IMG/VR virus record: IMGVR_UViG_3300042454_000181
Span: 1-20,193 of that record
Direction: 5' to 3' (one strand)
From: a virus
DNA: 20,193 nt
The notes below the pieces were generated by a model. It saw nothing but the letters and a program-made list of their open reading frames with translations, was not told where the DNA came from and searched no databases. How positions within the stretch are numbered: position 1 is the stretch's first letter; each line of letters begins with the position of its first letter. Shown here piece by piece: positions 3,001-19,785 of this stretch. Both the position numbers and the translations under genes were made by a program.

Positions 3001-4791
3001 GCTTCTGTGTTCCGTCCATTGGCTATTAACGGACTAGCTGCCCCATTGGCTGTTCTGGATGACTCTCTTTACCGGCTTAACGTAGCGCCAAACTACGAAA
3101 TTCTGCGTCGATTGACTGGCAAGGTGATGACTCAAAGCGGTATTCCCAAGGTTGGGGACTCCATGATGATCAACTCCGCTACCCGCAACGCCGAAAACGA
3201 AGAAGAGGACTATACCGAAGAATGGAACATTGCGATGGCTGCTATTGCCACTGAAATTGAAAACAACATTTTCAACGACGGACGAATCGGCGTGGTTAAC
3301 ACTGGCTTCTCTGAAACGATGACCTTCCTTGCTTCCACTTACGTGGTTCGAGCATTGTCTTCTGCTCAGCAGATTTGGAATCAGGTGCTTCCTCCAGTGG
3401 CTTTGTTTGTAACCAAAAAGTTGCTAACTGGTCAGTTCCAAGAAGCTTCTGACTTCCTCAAGATTTTGAGCCAGTCGATTAGTTCGCTAGTTACCCGAGA
3501 TTCATTCCGAGCAGATCTTAACGATTTCACTAAGCGCGTTTCTCCTTTCATTCACTTCCGTGGTGTTGACGGTCAAGACGTTGCTCGAAATGAACTTCGT
3601 TCTCAGCTTCGTTACGTTGATCCAAAAGCAAATCAGCTAATTGGAAGAAGCAAGCAGCTGTCCGGTAAGTTTGTTAAAGAGTATGAAAACCTAGGGGAAA
3701 AAGCACTAAACTATCTCATCGGCTCTGGTGAGCGATTGGTGTCTCGCGCAATCTTTGCGGCTGAACTCATGAGTGAGATTCGCCGTCGCAACGAAGGAGT
3801 TGGTCCCAAAACCGTTGAGGAATTGTTCGATCTCAAGGAAGATCAGATTCCTGTGGTTGCCAATGAGATGGCTCGAATCAAGGTGAGTGACATGATGGGT
3901 CAGTCCGATCAAAGCAAGAAGTCCCTGCTCTTCCAGAGCCAGTCTGATAGCCCTGTGTGGTCTTCTTTGCTCAAGTCGCTTGTTCGATTCAGTAACCACA
4001 CTGCGACCACCTCATCGAACATGACAGCATTCCTTCCCGGTTTGCTTGTTAAGGATGAAAACAATCGCACTCGTCAAGAAGCTGTGGAAAACATCATTGG
4101 AACCATTGGCCAGAACGTGGTCTTCCACTTTGCTAAAGTTCACACGCTAGTGCCAATGCTGTTTTATGTGTTCTACTTGGCAGGTGGCGACGATGATGAT
4201 GAAGCCGCTCGGAAGGCACAGCTAGTTGCCGATGACTGGTTGTCTTCTGAAGGTGATAGTGACCTTGTGGGCTTCGGAAAGGACTTGGCGTTTGGTAGCC
4301 AGAAGCAGTTGTTCAGCGACAAGAAAACTGCTGATGCTGCTCAGGCTTCCGCAATGGCCATGCTGACTTCCAAGGTGGGCATTGAGCTTGCCTCTGGAGT
4401 TCCTGTTCTTGGTGTGATGGCTGGATACTCTCCAATTAGCTCCATCCTAGCCCGCAACTTCGTCAACCCAGCTTCTGAGGAATTGGCAAGTGCTGTAACA
4501 GGAGTTGAAGTGGCCAACGCTTGGTATGAAAAGACCCGGGTTGGAGTGCAGGAGTATAGCGGTGGAGGCATTGAGAACATGGCTGACATCACTGCTCCAA
4601 GTTCGGTGCTTTACGACATGATGGCTGCACCCAAGCTGGCGTATGATGCTTACCCCACTGCGAACAGCTTTGACATTAGCCTCTACCTGATGTCTGAGCT
4701 ATTCTCTCCTGCTAGAGACTATCGCTCGGCACGCCGCAAGGAAATGCGCGAGGCAGCAAAGAAGGAAGAAAAGAAGAATAGAAACAACTGA
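1..4791 (+). CDS. Giant phage virion-type protein, 5' end outside window (probable internal/ejected protein)
   Basis: The frame is open from base 1 and 1596 residues are visible, so the TTG at 40 is probably internal and the true start lies upstream. The N-terminal third is charged and helical with coiled-coil-like stretches (around 650-800 and 950-1200 nt). A charged, low-complexity linker follows near 2750-2930 nt. The C-terminal third alternates helical and hydrophobic segments: ALSSAQQIWNQVLPP near 3350 nt, LVPMLFYVFYLAGG near 4150 nt followed by four Asp, and SGVPVLGVMAGYSPISS near 4400 nt. It ends in a very basic tail. No enzyme motif was seen. Size, hydrophobic C-terminal patches and being the only rightward gene resemble giant internal virion or polyvalent (LPD-containing) proteins that travel with phage DNA; this is inference. 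It ends 4 bp before a convergent gene, with no clear terminator between. Confidence 0.75.
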   Translation, partial: AELVQLSLRKRLELVHSREIQGMRELMASMRYLVGQREALLEIDPSGQIREGIVKELQGLVETFNKKTARLNEAVQANLNSHLDRLGLPPRSGVKPLSIVFGDMNTVTDAELNQIARRLSPKQIVSQANSDQLLLNSLFDWSGREFKAGLAEITGISVNKRVKKDTSENKRANLEALRRFMQNVEGKSKQEVFNLIDLMTPDIEEGASNRLDQVLQMLVLSTAEGQALIDERTSTEAEVKAKLDAQNDILEATRENNRIRRERDLLFNKQEDTFYVGRYRHVSNQLGPDRKPLAVQVGVELVAEGMAFDPKKKLSRQAQNERDQQVADWGNDLSRRRKFYIEKEALRRVLKRHSQDRVDQHYKKLRGQLDNFNTFDPSRMINEAMDRVRIEDAVIKSRFDRAVSDKEKAAARGVSQEALMMMLEHQKGFYTAPIVDLKNKTADELRQMRVEDRKVRRAKWQLNPRNIEDRRRLTGTLVNDGTPVVLMAVNARERLLRAFPKTVTPQNVNRQVNDIVLRALADHDGSGVFMQQTMSVDTKTPFASQDFNITQGQTLNAKEAGKVFSAHFVKNLGKWLDLTRGGKVNLSGTNSKKSIEFFSSLVEQLAQVYSNQGLRDRKGRLNPTGEKVKALLEKIDNGRFIDNNRAIQDLNLIGVYAEAFAELEATSIMKKLVSGLSIHDDFASLTMMKAFHHQDARVRMRFIKDHVARETAVHLQAFLEKGFDNGRSGREGGHTAREAARSIIANEAKKLKGNALDQTIGYVLAQLEGLSDNNGMGLSQALGAWIKDFSNSYNDLLQLEDAQKARWGGKTGLAKRFLWANHIELIRDIPLASRIIQIMKESGATSQYMAVTYAVKPAQQFNRDENARDVIEALRKALLKSASNEKAVKDYADVIHKTLSDTYNATTLTLALMSKPQGDETTGETDEEGKPSSWKNRSIEPSRRTYTSVPMRMAYAANPNSKKPRKVKEGKWIPDPADTVSITDSAFFGGAGKREENRKKASVFRPLAINGLAAPLAVLDDSLYRLNVAPNYEILRRLTGKVMTQSGIPKVGDSMMINSATRNAENEEEDYTEEWNIAMAAIATEIENNIFNDGRIGVVNTGFSETMTFLASTYVVRALSSAQQIWNQVLPPVALFVTKKLLTGQFQEASDFLKILSQSISSLVTRDSFRADLNDFTKRVSPFIHFRGVDGQDVARNELRSQLRYVDPKANQLIGRSKQLSGKFVKEYENLGEKALNYLIGSGERLVSRAIFAAELMSEIRRRNEGVGPKTVEELFDLKEDQIPVVANEMARIKVSDMMGQSDQSKKSLLFQSQSDSPVWSSLLKSLVRFSNHTATTSSNMTAFLPGLLVKDENNRTRQEAVENIIGTIGQNVVFHFAKVHTLVPMLFYVFYLAGGDDDDEAARKAQLVADDWLSSEGDSDLVGFGKDLAFGSQKQLFSDKKTADAAQASAMAMLTSKVGIELASGVPVLGVMAGYSPISSILARNFVNPASEELASAVTGVEVANAWYEKTRVGVQEYSGGGIENMADITAPSSVLYDMMAAPKLAYDAYPTANSFDISLYLMSELFSPARDYRSARRKEMREAAKKEEKKNRNN
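374..386. promoter_or_regulatory. Partial copy of the TTAG..CTAA palindrome inside the giant gene
   Basis: The 13 bases TTAGTCAGGCTAA are identical to the core of the intergenic site at 6688-6702. This copy is coding (Val-Ser-Gln-Ala-Asn), so it may be chance; it is listed because a 13-base match to an intergenic motif is unlikely in 20 kb. Confidence 0.2.
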
Positions 4792-4795
4792 CTTC

Positions 4796-5185
4796 TCAAA
4801 ACTCAGGCTCTTGAGGAAACGCTGGTAACTGAGAAGTTGGTTGCCAGCGTTCTTCTGCGTCTGGGATTCTTCTCATTTTGAATTTTTCTTTCTCACGCTT
4901 GGATAACCAAGAAGGAACAATCAATTCACCCAGTAGGCTTCTTTTGGTTCCGTGAGAAGGACAGGAAAAAACAGCAATTTCATTTTCAATTGTAATCTTC
5001 CTTTTCATAATTCTCCAAAGAATGTTGAGTCCTCTCCATGTTGGATAGCATTCACGAAGAATTCGGTCATAATACTTTTCAGCGCTCTTCAAAGACCTGA
5101 ACTCTTTCGTTACGGCGTCATTCCAAGGCCCCCCATCTAGTGATGCTTGGATGTGATACTTGGTTGTAGATTTTACTTTATTCAT
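4796..5185 (-). CDS. Hypothetical protein, 129 aa
   Basis: Not recognised. It is a soluble, strongly basic protein (many Lys and Arg), with a Tyr/Trp-rich first half and a Pro/Gln-rich tail ending PQEPEF. No cysteine cluster, membrane segment or nuclease motif is visible. ATG start at 5185; the upstream leader is A/T-rich (a run of T, then GACCTC) with no Shine-Dalgarno site. It converges on the giant gene with a 4-bp gap, so it is the last gene of the leftward block here. It is followed upstream, after 64 bp, by the 210-aa gene. Confidence 0.7.
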   Translation of the reverse strand: MNKVKSTTKYHIQASLDGGPWNDAVTKEFRSLKSAEKYYDRILRECYPTWRGLNILWRIMKRKITIENEIAVFSCPSHGTKRSLLGELIVPSWLSKREKEKFKMRRIPDAEERWQPTSQLPAFPQEPEF

Positions 5186-15322: not shown

Positions 15323-16303
15323 TTACTTAGCCAGCATTGCTTCTCCAGCTTTGACAAATTTGTCCCAATCACGCTCAAAGCCTTCCATTACGAAGCGCTT
15401 GACCTGTGCGCCAGAACCAAATTCTGAAGAGTAAAGTTGATTACCAGACTCTCGTGAAGACTCGTGGCTGTAAAACTCGGTGATGCCCATAGCAGCATCC
15501 AATCGGGTTCGACCAGAGTTGCCCTTACCACCGTCAAACAATTCCACAATGCGTGCAGTGCGCTGCTTGATTGGATTGGAAAGCTCCTTGGCGTTGCGCG
15601 TCTCCACTCCAACAACCCATGCGCGAGCTTCATCACGTGAGCATGGCTCCTTATCGGCGGTTTCCATGAGATACTGGAAGTAAGCAGAGGTGCCTGCAAA
15701 AGTATCCAGAGCATCAATGACCTTCTGGATGTTGCCATCAAGGTTGCCTGAGTGACGAGCCTTGCCGACCACTTTACCTACCTGCAAATTAGCAAGGAAA
15801 GTGTTGAGGCAAACCGTGACAATGGAAGAGTAGACCGCCGTGATTGAGCAGCTTTTGTCAAAGCTATCAAGTAAGGTGATGTAGTCTTTGATTTCCCGAT
15901 CTCCAATCCGGAAACCGTCAGTTACTTTAATCGAAGCAAAGACCTTGCCGCGATTGTCGGTAGTGCCAGCAGAAATGACGGTGTAAGGAGTTTCTCCAAG
16001 TCCTTTCTCAAGGATGTTCCAGAAGCCTGCAATGGAGCTTGGGCTGTAGCTAGGAGCAAATGGATCACCAACTGGAAGGAAGTCATCAGTGGCAATTAGA
16101 CGACGCCAATTAGGGTCTTCTACAATTTTGTCAGCAGTGCCTCCAAATGGATCATTGGATGGAACCCGATAGCAAAGAGGAGTGGAAACAACCTCAAACG
16201 GGGTTGAGTTTTCCTTAGTCACTTCAGGAACGATGTTGGTGAGGCGATGCCAAGCGTTTTCGAGTCCGCTTTGAATGTCGCGATTAGTGAGTCCGTGGGC
16301 CAT
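15323..16303 (-). CDS. DUF932 phage/plasmid-like protein, 326 aa
   Basis: The C-terminal half has the DUF932 layout: a cluster with V-C165-LNTFLANLQ, then ARHSGNL with His184 and NIQKVIDALD. The family is common on phages and plasmids, with no established biochemical role. The N-terminal half has beta-rich, Gly/Pro-turn stretches. The start is ATG 16303 (an in-frame ATG at 16399 would read through the preceding gene's leader and end); AAAGG lies about 9 nt upstream within an A-rich leader. The previous gene's stop is 25 bp away. It precedes the truncated HTH frame and the G+C-rich cassette. Confidence 0.85.
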   Translation of the reverse strand: MAHGLTNRDIQSGLENAWHRLTNIVPEVTKENSTPFEVVSTPLCYRVPSNDPFGGTADKIVEDPNWRRLIATDDFLPVGDPFAPSYSPSSIAGFWNILEKGLGETPYTVISAGTTDNRGKVFASIKVTDGFRIGDREIKDYITLLDSFDKSCSITAVYSSIVTVCLNTFLANLQVGKVVGKARHSGNLDGNIQKVIDALDTFAGTSAYFQYLMETADKEPCSRDEARAWVVGVETRNAKELSNPIKQRTARIVELFDGGKGNSGRTRLDAAMGITEFYSHESSRESGNQLYSSEFGSGAQVKRFVMEGFERDWDKFVKAGEAMLAK

Positions 16304-16328
16304 ATGTGTTGCCTTTCTTGTTTTTGGT

Positions 16329-16619
16329 TTAGAGAAGCCGTGGATTGTTCCAAGGCTGAGAGAGAATGAGTTTCTGAAGTTCAGCAACTTGAGTTTCAAG
16401 TTTTGCCAAACGCAGAATTATGTCCTGATCTGCTTTTTGCTGGTTGTTCTTCCAGCTGAGGTCTTGGCGCATATTGCTGTAAATGTTTTCCGAGATTCGG
16501 AATCCAGCTTCATTAGCAATTCTGACACCTTCGCTAACTGTTTTGCTTTCCAGTTCTTCGCGATTGGTTTGCATCCATTGCATCACTTTGAATGCGTCGG
16601 TTCTATTCAGTCTAATCAT
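16329..16619 (-). CDS. Hypothetical protein with C-terminal coiled coil, 96 aa
   Basis: Not recognised. Residues 1-50 form an alpha-helical, possibly DNA-binding region (AFKVMQWMQTNREELE, SEGVRIANEAGF). Residues 60-85 are a heptad-like coiled coil (ILRLAKLETQVAELQKLIL), suggesting a homodimer. ATG at 16619 follows an A-rich leader (ACCAAAACAAAAAC) and no SD. It sits between the tRNA and the DUF932 gene; the mix of helix and coil would fit a small regulator. Confidence 0.7.
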   Translation of the reverse strand: MIRLNRTDAFKVMQWMQTNREELESKTVSEGVRIANEAGFRISENIYSNMRQDLSWKNNQQKADQDIILRLAKLETQVAELQKLILSQPWNNPRLL

Positions 16620-16675
16620 GTTTTTGTTTTGGTGATTTGCTTTTTACGGAAGCTACCGAAATCTCAAGCGCGAAG

Positions 16676-16749
16676 CGCTCCCTGATGGACTCGAACCACC
16701 AACCGTCGAAGTAGAAGTTCGAAGCTCTATCCAATTGAGCTAAGGGAGC
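16676..16749 (-). tRNA. tRNA-Arg (anticodon UCU)
   Basis: Full cloverleaf, 74 nt: acceptor GCTCCCT/AGGGAGC; D arm GCTC...GAGC with GG in the loop; anticodon stem TCGAA/TTCGA with loop CTTCTAC (anticodon TCT, decoding AGA); 5-nt variable loop; T arm GGTGG/CCATC with loop TTCGAGT. The discriminator is G and no CCA is encoded. Just past the 3' end, AGCGC-TTC-GCGCT could form a hairpin that includes the last acceptor bases, possibly a processing or termination signal. Confidence 0.92.
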
Positions 16750-16756
16750 AAAATGA

Positions 16757-16814
16757 GAACCCGGTTACCTATCGCCACCCTCACCCCGAAGTTAGGCAAC
16801 CAGTAACCGGGTTC
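16757..16814 (-). other. Long hairpin between HNH gene and tRNA-Arg
   Basis: Perfect 12-bp inverted repeat GAACCCGGTTAC / GTAACCGGGTTC (16757-16768 and 16803-16814). On the minus strand the interior extends with TTGCC/GGCGA, separated from the main stem by a TGG/TAG internal loop, leaving an 18-nt apical loop. The 3' arm overlaps the stop codon of the HNH gene. There is no T-run, so intrinsic termination is unlikely; an RNA-processing or protective hairpin before the tRNA is more plausible. Confidence 0.7.
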
Positions 16815-17298
16815 AAAGCTTTCGTGCTGCACGCTCATCGTCACCGACTTTAGCGTGGCACTCGTGACATAAAATCTGATACCCATCAGCTTCAATGTAG
16901 AGGCGCTGAATCACTTCATTCCAGTCGTAACCAAGGAAGTGATCGCCATCTGCCCAATTGTGTTGAAGGGGAATGACTGAATTGATGTGGTCAGCATGAA
17001 CACCGCTTTGTGGAAATTGACGTTGGCAATGTTCGCACTGATGCAGCTTGCACTGGCGACCTGTTGCTGGGTTGATGCCGTAACCAATAAAGGCTTTCTT
17101 GAGGGCTTGGTGACGCTGAGGCCATTGGGCGCGACGAAGGGCTGACATCACGAAGCTACGCATTCTTGCTAGGCTCCATTCTCCACCATTGAATGGGCGT
17201 TCAATCCCGCTCCGGGGCTTTGACTTTTTCTTTGCGAAGCGCTTGGACTTTTTCGTGCTGGAACCCAGAACCTTTTTTCGTCGGGATGGCATCGGCAT
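16813..17298 (-). CDS. HNH endonuclease, 161 aa
   Basis: Residues 83-160 carry a classic HNH fold: C88-x-x-C91, VH101-ADH104-I, WNEVIQRL, then LC144-HECH148 and an ERAARK end. Upstream, GGEWSLARMRSFVMSALRRAQWP is the helical region many phage HNH proteins share. It predicts a metal-dependent DNA nuclease, either homing or packaging-linked. Residues 1-30 are extremely Lys/Arg-rich. The first ATG (17298) lies 98 nt inside the upstream gene, in another frame; ATG at residue 3 is equally possible. The stop is in the arm of the long hairpin that precedes the tRNA. Confidence 0.88.
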   Translation of the reverse strand: MPMPSRRKKVLGSSTKKSKRFAKKKSKPRSGIERPFNGGEWSLARMRSFVMSALRRAQWPQRHQALKKAFIGYGINPATGRQCKLHQCEHCQRQFPQSGVHADHINSVIPLQHNWADGDHFLGYDWNEVIQRLYIEADGYQILCHECHAKVGDDERAARKL

Positions 17299-17539
17299 TA
17301 AACTTGTTGAGCTTTTCAGTGATAGTTTGCAAGTTTTTTGCAGTTAGCGGAGTGGTTGGCAAAATCGCCAGCGGGTAAAAAAACCACTCTTTCAACTCCT
17401 CATCAAACCTGAACTCCCCAAGCTTTGAACCAACCATCCAAACAACATCGGTAAAGCCAATGGCTTGCACTGTTGTTTCTGCAAGCTTGCCGTTAATCCA
17501 TTCAACAGCTCGGTAAGTGAATATAGTAATAGGGTTCAT
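17201..17539 (-). CDS. Hypothetical protein, 112 aa
   Basis: Not recognised. It is beta-rich at the N-terminus (ITIFTYRAVEWINGKLAETT), then aromatic (FDEELKEWFFYPLAILP), then a basic helical tail (HEKVQALRKEKVKAPERD). ATG 17539 is preferred: the frame extends 45 codons further up, but only into the structured RNA region and without similarity. Its leader is made partly from the last copy of the linker repeat (17547-17560), with no SD. The last 98 nt are shared in another frame with the HNH N-terminus. Confidence 0.65.
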   Translation of the reverse strand: MNPITIFTYRAVEWINGKLAETTVQAIGFTDVVWMVGSKLGEFRFDEELKEWFFYPLAILPTTPLTAKNLQTITEKLNKFNADAIPTKKGSGFQHEKVQALRKEKVKAPERD

Positions 17540-17546
17540 GGTGTTG

Positions 17547-18289
17547 TTTTGGAAAAGGTGCGACCCGCTCGGGACTAAACCCGACATTTGTGCCTTCCCC
17601 ATCAGCTTTTCAAACCACCCGGATTTCTCCGGCAGGCGGTGCATGTTGGAAGACCCTCCGGACAAGGGCCGCATTTGGAAAGAGGTGAAAAGGGGAAGGA
17701 CTTATTTGGTTGGCCGGTCGAATGAACGTCTTCTTCGCGTCGGACTTACGGATATGCCTTCACCCTTTTTATTTTGGAAAAGGTTTTTGCCGCCGCGTGA
17801 GTGGTCCGGTTATCCCGGATTCCTTACGTGCTCTCACGCGCTTCCCGCTGGCTGTAGCACTGCCTCAGCGGTCGGCTAGCACAAGCACGGCAAAGTCTGG
17901 AAAGTGGTTGGGATCGGGATTTGACTCCCGCTAGAGGCTTCTGTGATCAACTAGAACGCAACTGTTTTATCCCGTTTGGAAAATGGTGGCCGGGGATCCT
18001 CGGCATTATGCCCTGGTTTCAGTCAACAGACAGACTGGTGAGAGCCAGGTTCAGCCGCCGACCATTTTGGAAAGAGTGAGAAAGGCCGGTCTTACCCCGG
18101 CTCTAGGCTGATCATGCCCACGATCTACAACACTTGTCTGAGTTTCAAGCCGCCGCTTTACTATTTGCGTCGGGACTCAACGAACGCGTGATTCGTTGAC
18201 CTCACCCGATAAACTGACTCAAACCTCATGTTGCGACTTTGCTACGTGTCTAAGAAATTCCACGCCGCTTTCTCATTTGGAAAATGGTG
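17547..18289. repeat. Seven copies of a linker motif TTTGGAAA(A/G)..GGTG between RNA modules
   Basis: Copies begin at about 17547, 17673, 17771, 17894, 17974, 18064 and 18274, with spacings of 126, 98, 123, 80, 90 and 210 bp. On the minus strand the usual form is ACC, then one or two bases, then TTTCCAAA. The 4th copy has TTTCCAGA and the 6th reads CACTCTTTCCAAA. The segments between are each closed by a helix, so the repeats are linkers of a modular RNA rather than CRISPR repeats (spacing is irregular). Confidence 0.7.
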
Positions 18290-18437
18290 ACCTGTCCGGA
18301 TCGGCATTGTGAACTCAACTGGCTCTTGAATGGCGTACGGCCAGTAATCAGAGGAGTTTAGTGGTGGGTTTTCAGCCGCAGATCATTGGGTCCGGTTACC
18401 GTATCCGTAGCCAGCTTGACGCTACTGGCGGTTTCAT

Positions 18438-18477
18438 GTCTAGGTCCATCATCCCTTGCGGTCTAGGTCCATCATCC
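18438..18477. repeat. Perfect 17-bp tandem direct repeat, 23-bp period
   Basis: GTCTAGGTCCATCATCC is found at 18438-18454 and again at 18461-18477. It lies inside the structured RNA region, in the largest module, so it may be a recent duplication of an RNA segment or a pair of protein-binding sites. Confidence 0.85.
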
Positions 18478-18911
18478 ATGCTTAAGGCAGCGTCTTTCCG
18501 CTGTGTCACTGCACCTGTTTTGTCAGGAGGTAGTCAGCTTCTCCTTATGTGGCGGGAGGATTCGAACCTCCGGACGTTGATACGTTGCAGCACGCATCCC
18601 CGTTCTATCTGCATCAACCTTAGACCTTCCTCGGTCACAACCACAGTCCAACCCCCGGTCAGGTCGCTCACCTTGCACATGACAGGAGTCAAAGACCCCA
18701 CCGCTACGCTGGCGATCCTGTGCATACGTTTTAGTGACGGGTGCCCTCACTGCGGAGGCTGGAGTGTAATCTTGGTCTTTCCCAAGCGTCACCGATTTCC
18801 GCACTACTGGTGATGGTTCACCGCGTTTACCTAAATGCGTTTAGGGGCCGTTCCTTCTGTCTCGTTGCGGCCAAGCGCTTCCAGAACGAATTCTGGGGAC
18901 AACGCTAAAAA

Positions 18912-19232
18912 TCAATCCAACTTCTTGTCTTCAGTTCTCCAAACTCTAATCAAGGAACCGTCAATGCGAGCAACGAAGTTCGCACTTGGATTGTATTTCC
19001 TGACGTAGTTTCGTGCGCTAAGCACAACCGAGGACAGCTGGCGTTTGATGTGGTCAGCTTTGTGAAGAGTTGGAAACGAGAACGATTGACCCGGCTCCAG
19101 CTTTTCAAATGGATAGACCATTCTGTTTTCCTGAGGTTTTTCAGGAATTGGAATGCCGCTTTCAATCTCGATTTTGTTCCTGTCAATTCGAGTGATTACA
19201 GGAATTGAAGGTTTGCGTTCTTTGGTTTTCAT
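18912..19232 (-). CDS. Small conserved-looking phage protein, 106 aa
   Basis: Not named. The core YPFEKLEPGQSFSFPTLHKAD followed by a helical SSVVLSARNYVRKYNPSANF and a final RVWRTEDKK is a layout seen in many small phage proteins (YPF..L..G.SF..P ... RVWR). No enzymatic residues were recognised. The start ATG 19232 is 7 bp after the SSB-like gene's stop (a weak TAGG sits just upstream), so the two are probably co-expressed. The structured RNA region begins right after its stop. Confidence 0.75.
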   Translation of the reverse strand: MKTKERKPSIPVITRIDRNKIEIESGIPIPEKPQENRMVYPFEKLEPGQSFSFPTLHKADHIKRQLSSVVLSARNYVRKYNPSANFVARIDGSLIRVWRTEDKKLD

Positions 19233-19239
19233 AGCCTAC

Positions 19240-19785
19240 TTAGAAAGGAGCTGGTTCTGGAGCCTCTTCAGACTCTGGAGTTTCTCCGGTTTCGGAGTAA
19301 TGAGCGTAAACCTTGGCAAGCTGAAGAACCAAGGATTGAGCCGAGAACACGTCACCTCCAACACCCATCGACGTGACCAGTGCGGTAGCGTGAGTAAGGC
19401 TGTTTTGACGAATGATGGTCGAGTCCTTTGCCGTTACGTCAGCAGTGCCACTATGAGAAGCAGGAGCAGCTTGAGCAACCTGAGATGGGTCTCCACCTAC
19501 CACAGCCAAGCCGTTCTCTCCTGAGAGCTGTGGAGTGCCCTTGTAGTCACCACGCTTGAGCGGGCCTTGGATGGTGATGGTTTGACCGTCCTGAATAGGA
19601 AGCGATGCTGCTGCTCCCCACAAAGACACCGCAATTTGACCACTGCTGTCAGACAGGGTGACGTTGCGCATCATTTTGCCATTGGCAAGGGCTTTGGCTG
19701 GCCACTTGGCCTGAACCTTGACGTTTTCGAGGGACATCACCTGTCCACCGACAGGAGTGCTAATTGCTTGGAATACCGTAGGCAT
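19240..19785 (-). CDS. SSB-like OB-fold single-stranded DNA-binding protein, 181 aa
   Basis: The first half (about 15-98) looks like an OB-fold: alternating beta strands with KVQAKWPAKA, NVTLSDSSGQIAVSLWG and QTITIQGPLKRGDYKG. A low-complexity Gly/Ala/Ser/Thr linker follows, with a helix near 130-155. The C-terminus is acidic and ends in Phe (ETPESEEAPEPAPF), as in bacterial SSB tails that recruit repair and replication partners. It should coat phage single-stranded DNA during replication and recombination. ATG at 19785 has an A-rich leader (ACAAAACAAAAAG), no SD; a palindromic site lies 66 bp upstream at 19851-19865. Neighbours: nuclease end and a YPF protein. Confidence 0.72.
   Translation of the reverse strand: MPTVFQAISTPVGGQVMSLENVKVQAKWPAKALANGKMMRNVTLSDSSGQIAVSLWGAAASLPIQDGQTITIQGPLKRGDYKGTPQLSGENGLAVVGGDPSQVAQAAPASHSGTADVTAKDSTIIRQNSLTHATALVTSMGVGGDVFSAQSLVLQLAKVYAHYSETGETPESEEAPEPAPF

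Follow-up and report, generated by a model that had tools for sequence, protein, structure and literature searches.

RNA C and RNA D of phage T4 are small stable RNAs encoded inside the phage tRNA cluster, and their function is unknown. The pRNA of phi29, another small RNA of phage origin, has closed ends, forms multimers by loop contacts and is tied to the packaging motor in phi29-like phages. ROOL is a phage or prophage RNA found near tRNA genes and multimerises through kissing loops. GOLLD is phage encoded, structured and often located near tRNA genes, and forms a homo-oligomer whose symmetric kissing loops show palindromic covariation (PMC12286853). Few natural RNAs carry sequence evidence of self-pairing; the best known of them, namely GOLLD, ROOL, OLE and phi29 pRNA, are single RNAs.

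The window analysed here is the linear IMG/VR record IMGVR_UViG_3300042454_000181 (20,193 bases), in which positions 17548 to 18905 are a predicted phage RNA locus that lies on the minus strand, in the same direction as the neighbouring genes (Table 1). The locus resembles GOLLD in being phage encoded, structured and close to a tRNA gene, and shares the last feature and its phage origin with ROOL. GOLLD, however, is one RNA, often of over 800 nt, and ROOL is also one RNA, whereas the window appears to hold a core and a row of separate cassettes of 70 to 200 nt. Unlike that of GOLLD, its presumed contact site is a 7-nt bulge that carries a palindrome of six letters. The palindromes of one unit class (class A), as read from the sequences, point towards a homo-oligomer. 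T4 RNA C and RNA D are similar by description, as small RNAs of a phage RNA-gene array, but they sit among real tRNAs, while no unit here is a tRNA. The phi29 pRNA pairs two different loops, in contrast to the self-complementary bulge and several unit types of this locus.

Rfam 15 covariance models at the gathering score gave no match to GOLLD, ROOL or OLE in the window and found the tRNA-Arg alone. There was also no Rfam match in the window to tmRNA, group I and II introns or HEARO, and no tmRNA by ARAGORN; permissive Rfam filters gave a single chance match to a plant miRNA (E 0.55). These searches cover the known classes that an earlier note on this DNA had listed for comparison. Neither ARAGORN nor the Rfam tRNA model found tRNAs among the units here, or in those related arrays that were scanned. 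The locus consists of structured, possibly homo-oligomeric phage RNAs of unknown classes, outside GOLLD and ROOL.

Table 1. Predicted RNA features and neighbouring genes in the window, and copies of the GTPase-associated-centre cassette in cultured phages (contig:positions)
Feature	Positions	Strand	Structure or remarks
OB-fold gene	19240-19785	minus	
DUF7303 gene	18912-19232	minus	
Core 5' domain	18771-18882	minus	Three covarying hairpins, the first at 18846-18872 (GGCCG...CGGCC), and first copy of GAAAGA-loop hairpin (18771-18786)
Insert in core	18514-18770	minus	About 260 nt; splits core domains in the window
Core 3' domain	18387-18513	minus	Hairpins P1 (18488-18503, loop GAAAGA), P2, P3 (18410-18429, loop TAGCGTCAAG) and P4 (18391-18409, loop ATACGGTAA)
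Unit A1 (class A)	18285-18385	minus	Stem TGATCTG/CAGGTCA; second stem CGGC/GCCG; bulge A-TCCGGA; 3' end ACCA
Unit B	18075-18275	minus	Closing stem TGAGAAAG/CTTTCTCA (shuffle p 0.0025); hairpin GCCGG-GGTAAGA-CCGGC beside its 3' strand
Unit A2 (class A)	17984-18064	minus	Stem TGGTCGG/CCGGCCA; bulge A-GGATCC; 3' end ACCA
Unit D	17905-17974	minus	70 nt; scan-found stem CGGGAT/ATCCCG (p 0.04); 3' end ACCA
Unit E	17782-17895	minus	Stem TTTGCCGT/GCGGCAAA (p 0.0075)
Unit F	17683-17772	minus	Scan-found stem GGGTGAAGG/TTTTCACCT (p 0.003)
Unit G	17557-17673	minus	Stem TGCGGCCC/GGGTCGCA; hairpin 17567-17587 (ATGTCGGGTTTAGTCCCGAGC)
Linkers (T/C)TTTCCA(A/G)A	18276-18284, 18066-18074, 17975-17983, 17896-17904, 17773-17781, 17674-17682, 17548-17556	minus	Seven, between units and after the last
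Small gene	17201-17539	minus	
HNH gene	16813-17298	minus	
tRNA-Arg	16675-16749	minus	Rfam and ARAGORN
DUF932 gene	15323-16399	minus	
GTPase-centre copy, pf16	L223:2490-2690		
GTPase-centre copy, UNO-G1W1	L224:2490-2690		
GTPase-centre copy, Aeromonas 4_4572	L225:2480-2790		
GTPase-centre copy, XacN1	L226:2990-3235		
GTPase-centre copy, GAP32	L227:2485-2750		
GTPase-centre copies, others	among L184-L221		

The earlier note had read 17547 to 18905 as one candidate giant non-coding RNA with dense structure, lying about 0.8 kb from a tRNA-Arg. Its extent is about right, with the DUF7303 gene ending at 18912 on one side and the small gene beginning at about 17539 on the other, and the tRNA was recovered at that distance. 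No Pfam or PHROG family matched any ORF within 17548 to 18905, and neither a conserved coding frame nor a known protein family was found there. Between the window and its nearest relative, L089 (IMGVR_UViG_3300034107_001363), the longest plus-strand ORF (18361 to 18813) shows 6, 5 and 1 substitutions at codon positions 1, 2 and 3, respectively, which is the reverse of a coding pattern and bears out the claim that there is no credible gene. The frame is open in L089 too, because both 15-nt gaps are in frame.

An excess of structure on the minus strand is real, yet modest and uneven: folding gave z = -2.8 on the minus strand versus +0.3 on the plus strand at 18387 to 18905, and -1.8 versus -1.05 at 17557 to 18386. 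Across the full 1.45 kb, the two strands are equally foldable (-493.4 versus -493.2 kcal/mol), and a list of stems from a single sequence is therefore weak evidence. Proof that the predicted RNA is structured is comparative, rather than from folding energy. Compensatory changes occur in the core and in class A units, in agreement with the earlier proposal of a structured minus-strand RNA that codes for no protein; their absence would have counted against that proposal, which therefore passed one of its own tests. Promoter and terminator scans of the stretch gave no signal above chance.

The core RNA, predicted at approximately 18387 to 18882, has two domains interrupted by an insert. The 5' domain of the window was aligned with those of contigs L009, L014, L136 and L150 (five sequences in all); 97.3% of pair cells were standard, and the covariation score was 0.533 versus 0.179 in shuffled alignments (reached by 0 of 500). 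The 3' domain is common to ten contigs, with conserved loops on variable stems in three of its four hairpins. In the ten-sequence alignment (A3), 95.5% of pair cells were standard and 11 of 20 pairs had changed on both sides; this covariation was reached by 0 of 500 shuffles, and slid controls were far lower. Covariance model R1 of the core, built from sequences including the window itself, matches the window at 114 bits, with covarying P1 to P4 and the loops GAAAGA, TAGCGTCAAG and ATACGGTAA all present. A shorter version of the insert is kept in L089, and the insert is absent from L009 and L014. It contains a tRNA-like stretch (18547 to 18645) with, by sequence reading, a canonical T arm (18555 to 18571; GGAGGTTCGAATCCTCC), and neither ARAGORN nor Rfam called it a tRNA.

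Model R1 also detected additional core copies, not accompanied by the array, between other genes of related phages. More divergent copies lie at L136:8554-8652, L153:9165-9259 (minus), L176:1248-1349, L009:4258-4366 and 4733-4860, L014:5297-5416 and L178:767-856. A further copy (L137:8452-8564, minus) is found in a contig of a different kind (L137/L138), between terminase-like and portal-like genes. Inside P2 of the window, a 17-nt tandem duplication (GGATGATGGACCTAGAC, minus strand; 18438-18454 and 18461-18477) is absent from L089. Ribosomal origin of the core was rejected, its resemblance to 23S positions 2031 to 2056 being lost in other cores.

On the minus strand, the core is followed at its 3' side by what appear to be seven units in tandem, separated by the linker (T/C)TTTCCA(A/G)A. 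A stem of 6 to 9 bp lies close to the ends of all seven, with shuffle p values of 0.0025 to 0.053 each, which are optimistic because the linkers were noticed before the test. The helix joining 18268-18275 and 18077-18084, listed in the earlier note, has 8 of 8 pairs; this helix closes unit B and is invariant in L089. Class G units recur in L143, L177, L178, L179 and L015, and in L015 a linker of the same kind separates other units and also precedes the class G unit. The folds of units D, E and F rest on one sequence, since relatives are absent from the data. Unit G resembles helix 36 of 16S rRNA (AAATGTYGGGTTNAGTCCCG), with a score reached by 4 of 300 shuffles; derivation from helix 36 was nevertheless rejected because unit G of L143 carries a GAAA loop instead. 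A further recurrent unit type of about 62 nt (GAGCATG...CATGCTC-ACC) is near-identical in L143 (1540-1605), L177, L178 and L179.

Class A comprises A1 and A2 in the window and relatives in L089, L150, L139 and L136. The closing and second stems covary, in a pair count that leaves out the pieces between stems, and between their 3' strands lies a 7-nt bulge whose last six letters are TCCGGA (A1 and the L089 copy), GGATCC (A2), TCATGA (L150) or GCTAGC (L136). The L139 copy has the palindrome GCGCGC two positions earlier than the others. Model R2 of the class, which cannot encode a palindrome, later found two copies that had not been used in building it: one in L004 (GACGTC) and L236, the second class A copy of the L136 contig (TCATGA again). 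A six-letter palindrome, mostly a different one, is therefore present in all seven copies on which the evidence is based (A1 and L089 counted once), at the same offset in six. A random six-mer is palindromic with a chance of 1/64, and the background in the array is 13/1354. Both A units of the window have the features of the class: a 7-bp stem, a CGGC/GCCG-like second stem, a palindromic bulge and a 3' ACC. For OLE and GOLLD, the replacement of one palindrome by another was taken to indicate symmetric kissing (PMC12286853). Given this precedent and the retention of a palindrome under change, homodimerisation through the bulge is the best reading of class A and quite likely. The palindromes of A1 and A2 differ, and each would therefore pair only with its own kind.

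Related contigs were retrieved through the primase, DNA motifs and OB-fold protein of the window; L089 was retrieved with the bait ATTTGGAAAATGGTG, whose matches were mostly due to chance. The RNA directly follows the OB-fold gene in L014, L009, L143, L177, L178 and L179, and a DUF7303 gene lies between the two in the window and L089. In L172, gene order is similar, but the core RNA is absent. Alignment of L089 gave 88% identity over 18065-18672, followed by a jump to the downstream gene: the L089 array ends after unit B, so that only the core and the first two units are present. Units A2, D, E, F and G are absent as a block, with a linker at both junctions, which argues that whole units come and go. 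Searches of cultured phage records with the window's stretch gave no match, and those with pieces of related arrays gave short chance-like matches and the separate GTPase-centre motif (below) only. A pattern search of 85,462 genomes of bacteria and archaea gave 15 matches, all chance-like in appearance.

The modular arrangement bears directly on whether the core and units fold and act as a single long, ornate RNA, comparable to the conserved 3' and less conserved 5' parts of GOLLD. Core and array are contiguous on one strand, the core has excess folding on that strand, and GOLLD too has conserved and variable regions and often lies near tRNA genes (PMC12286853). However, every unit has its own end stem, L089 lacks whole units, core copies elsewhere between genes have no array, and the short intergenic region of L004 that holds a class A unit has just the one, with no core match in that contig. 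Furthermore, the long-range helix proposed between 18655-18665 and 18289-18299 has 10 of 11 pairs in the window but is broken (A-C) in L089, where the same T-to-C change meets a compensating one in the local class A stem (TGATCTG/CAGGTCA to TGGTCTG/CAGGCCA). A single long RNA is consequently unlikely, and of the giant RNA described earlier, the structured, non-coding character stands and the single molecule does not. The units might instead be leaders or processing signals acting in cis on downstream genes, as all copies have the same orientation as the genes beside them, the core copies at L136:8554 and in L153 end right before an ATG, and the class A unit of L004 ends at one. This is improbable: downstream genes differ among relatives, seven units in a row would be odd for a single leader and palindromic homodimer sites are unusual in leaders.

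Acceptor-like stems and T-arm-like hairpins, with ACC or ACCA 3' ends after a 7-bp stem, could also be remnants or variants of a decayed or strongly unusual tRNA array, given the T arm in the core insert and the real tRNA gene 0.8 kb away. The negative tRNA searches and unit lengths of 70 to 201 nt make this very improbable, and class A units and the core are not decayed tRNAs because they have conserved non-tRNA motifs and covarying stems. As for unannotated small proteins, ORFs of 74 to 150 amino acids exist and the 18361-18813 frame is open in L089, but the lack of family matches, the anti-coding substitutions in that frame and RNA covariation in the same bases leave them hardly any probability.

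The favoured reading is a row of small RNAs with a conserved core and seven exchangeable units, of which class A dimerises by its palindrome; as a whole, this is somewhat probable. Its anatomy (non-coding, structured and modular, with a palindrome kept under change) is highly probable. A transcript from the minus strand would probably be cut into separate RNAs at the A/U-rich linkers. Each unit would fold separately, with a closing stem close to its ends. Units come and go whole, much as genes do in the tRNA arrays of phages. Class A RNAs would each dimerise with their own twin via the six-letter palindrome, and the RNAs may act during infection, perhaps on translation. Swappable cassettes with one class whose contact changes and is always palindromic would be a simple test system for phage RNA homodimers.

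In L178 and L139/L141, the same locus holds a different cassette, which resembles the GTPase-associated centre of 23S rRNA. It contains a letter-for-letter helix 43 (GTTGGCTTAGAAGCAGCCAT; score reached by 0 of 300 shuffles), a helix-44-like strand approximately 110 to 260 nt further on (GGCGTAACAGCACAC in L178, AGCGTAGTAGCACAT in L139) and a closing stem. The cassette is widespread. Across 28 distinct copies collected, a variable insert of about 80 to 350 nt separates the helix 43 and helix 44 strands, and the seven-pair closing stem covaries and is 94.9% paired, versus 53.6% with partners permuted. A tRNA gene lies within 1.2 kb of about 20 of the 28 (count from the listing). Five copies are in cultured phages (Table 1), whose records have little or no annotation at that place. 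The mimic belongs to no Rfam family, two copies scoring only weakly against archaeal LSU rRNA, and no description was found in the open-access literature searched.

The mimic is, like the units of the window, closed by a stem, and its ACGGTAA motif is also present in core P4. It is not matched by R1, save for a weak match beside the L178 copy. The core as a cut-down GTPase-centre RNA was rejected, as that idea rests on the short ACGGTAA motif only and the R1 search was unsupportive. A helix-43-like motif (GGCTTAGAAGCAGCC, up to 3 mismatches allowed) had no match in the window, and the mimic therefore bears on the locus rather than on the units of the window. For the whole locus, the best guess is action on host translation because two relatives carry the mimic there; such a role is a tentative suggestion and a weak one. 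With similarly low probability, interchangeable cassettes, some finding their own twin by a private palindrome and others copying a ribosome part, may together form an RNA toolkit to disturb, shield or re-program host translation. A role in translation becomes testable through the positional link to a mimic that cultured phages also carry.

The GTPase-centre copy of UNO-G1W1 overlaps a small hypothetical CDS encoded on the other strand. Paenibacillus phage Pd_22F also matched the helix 43 motif and was rejected as a mimic, its match being a true 23S rRNA gene. The Pd_22F record contains complete 23S and 5S rRNA genes (L228:1273-4378), which suggests host DNA in the assembly.
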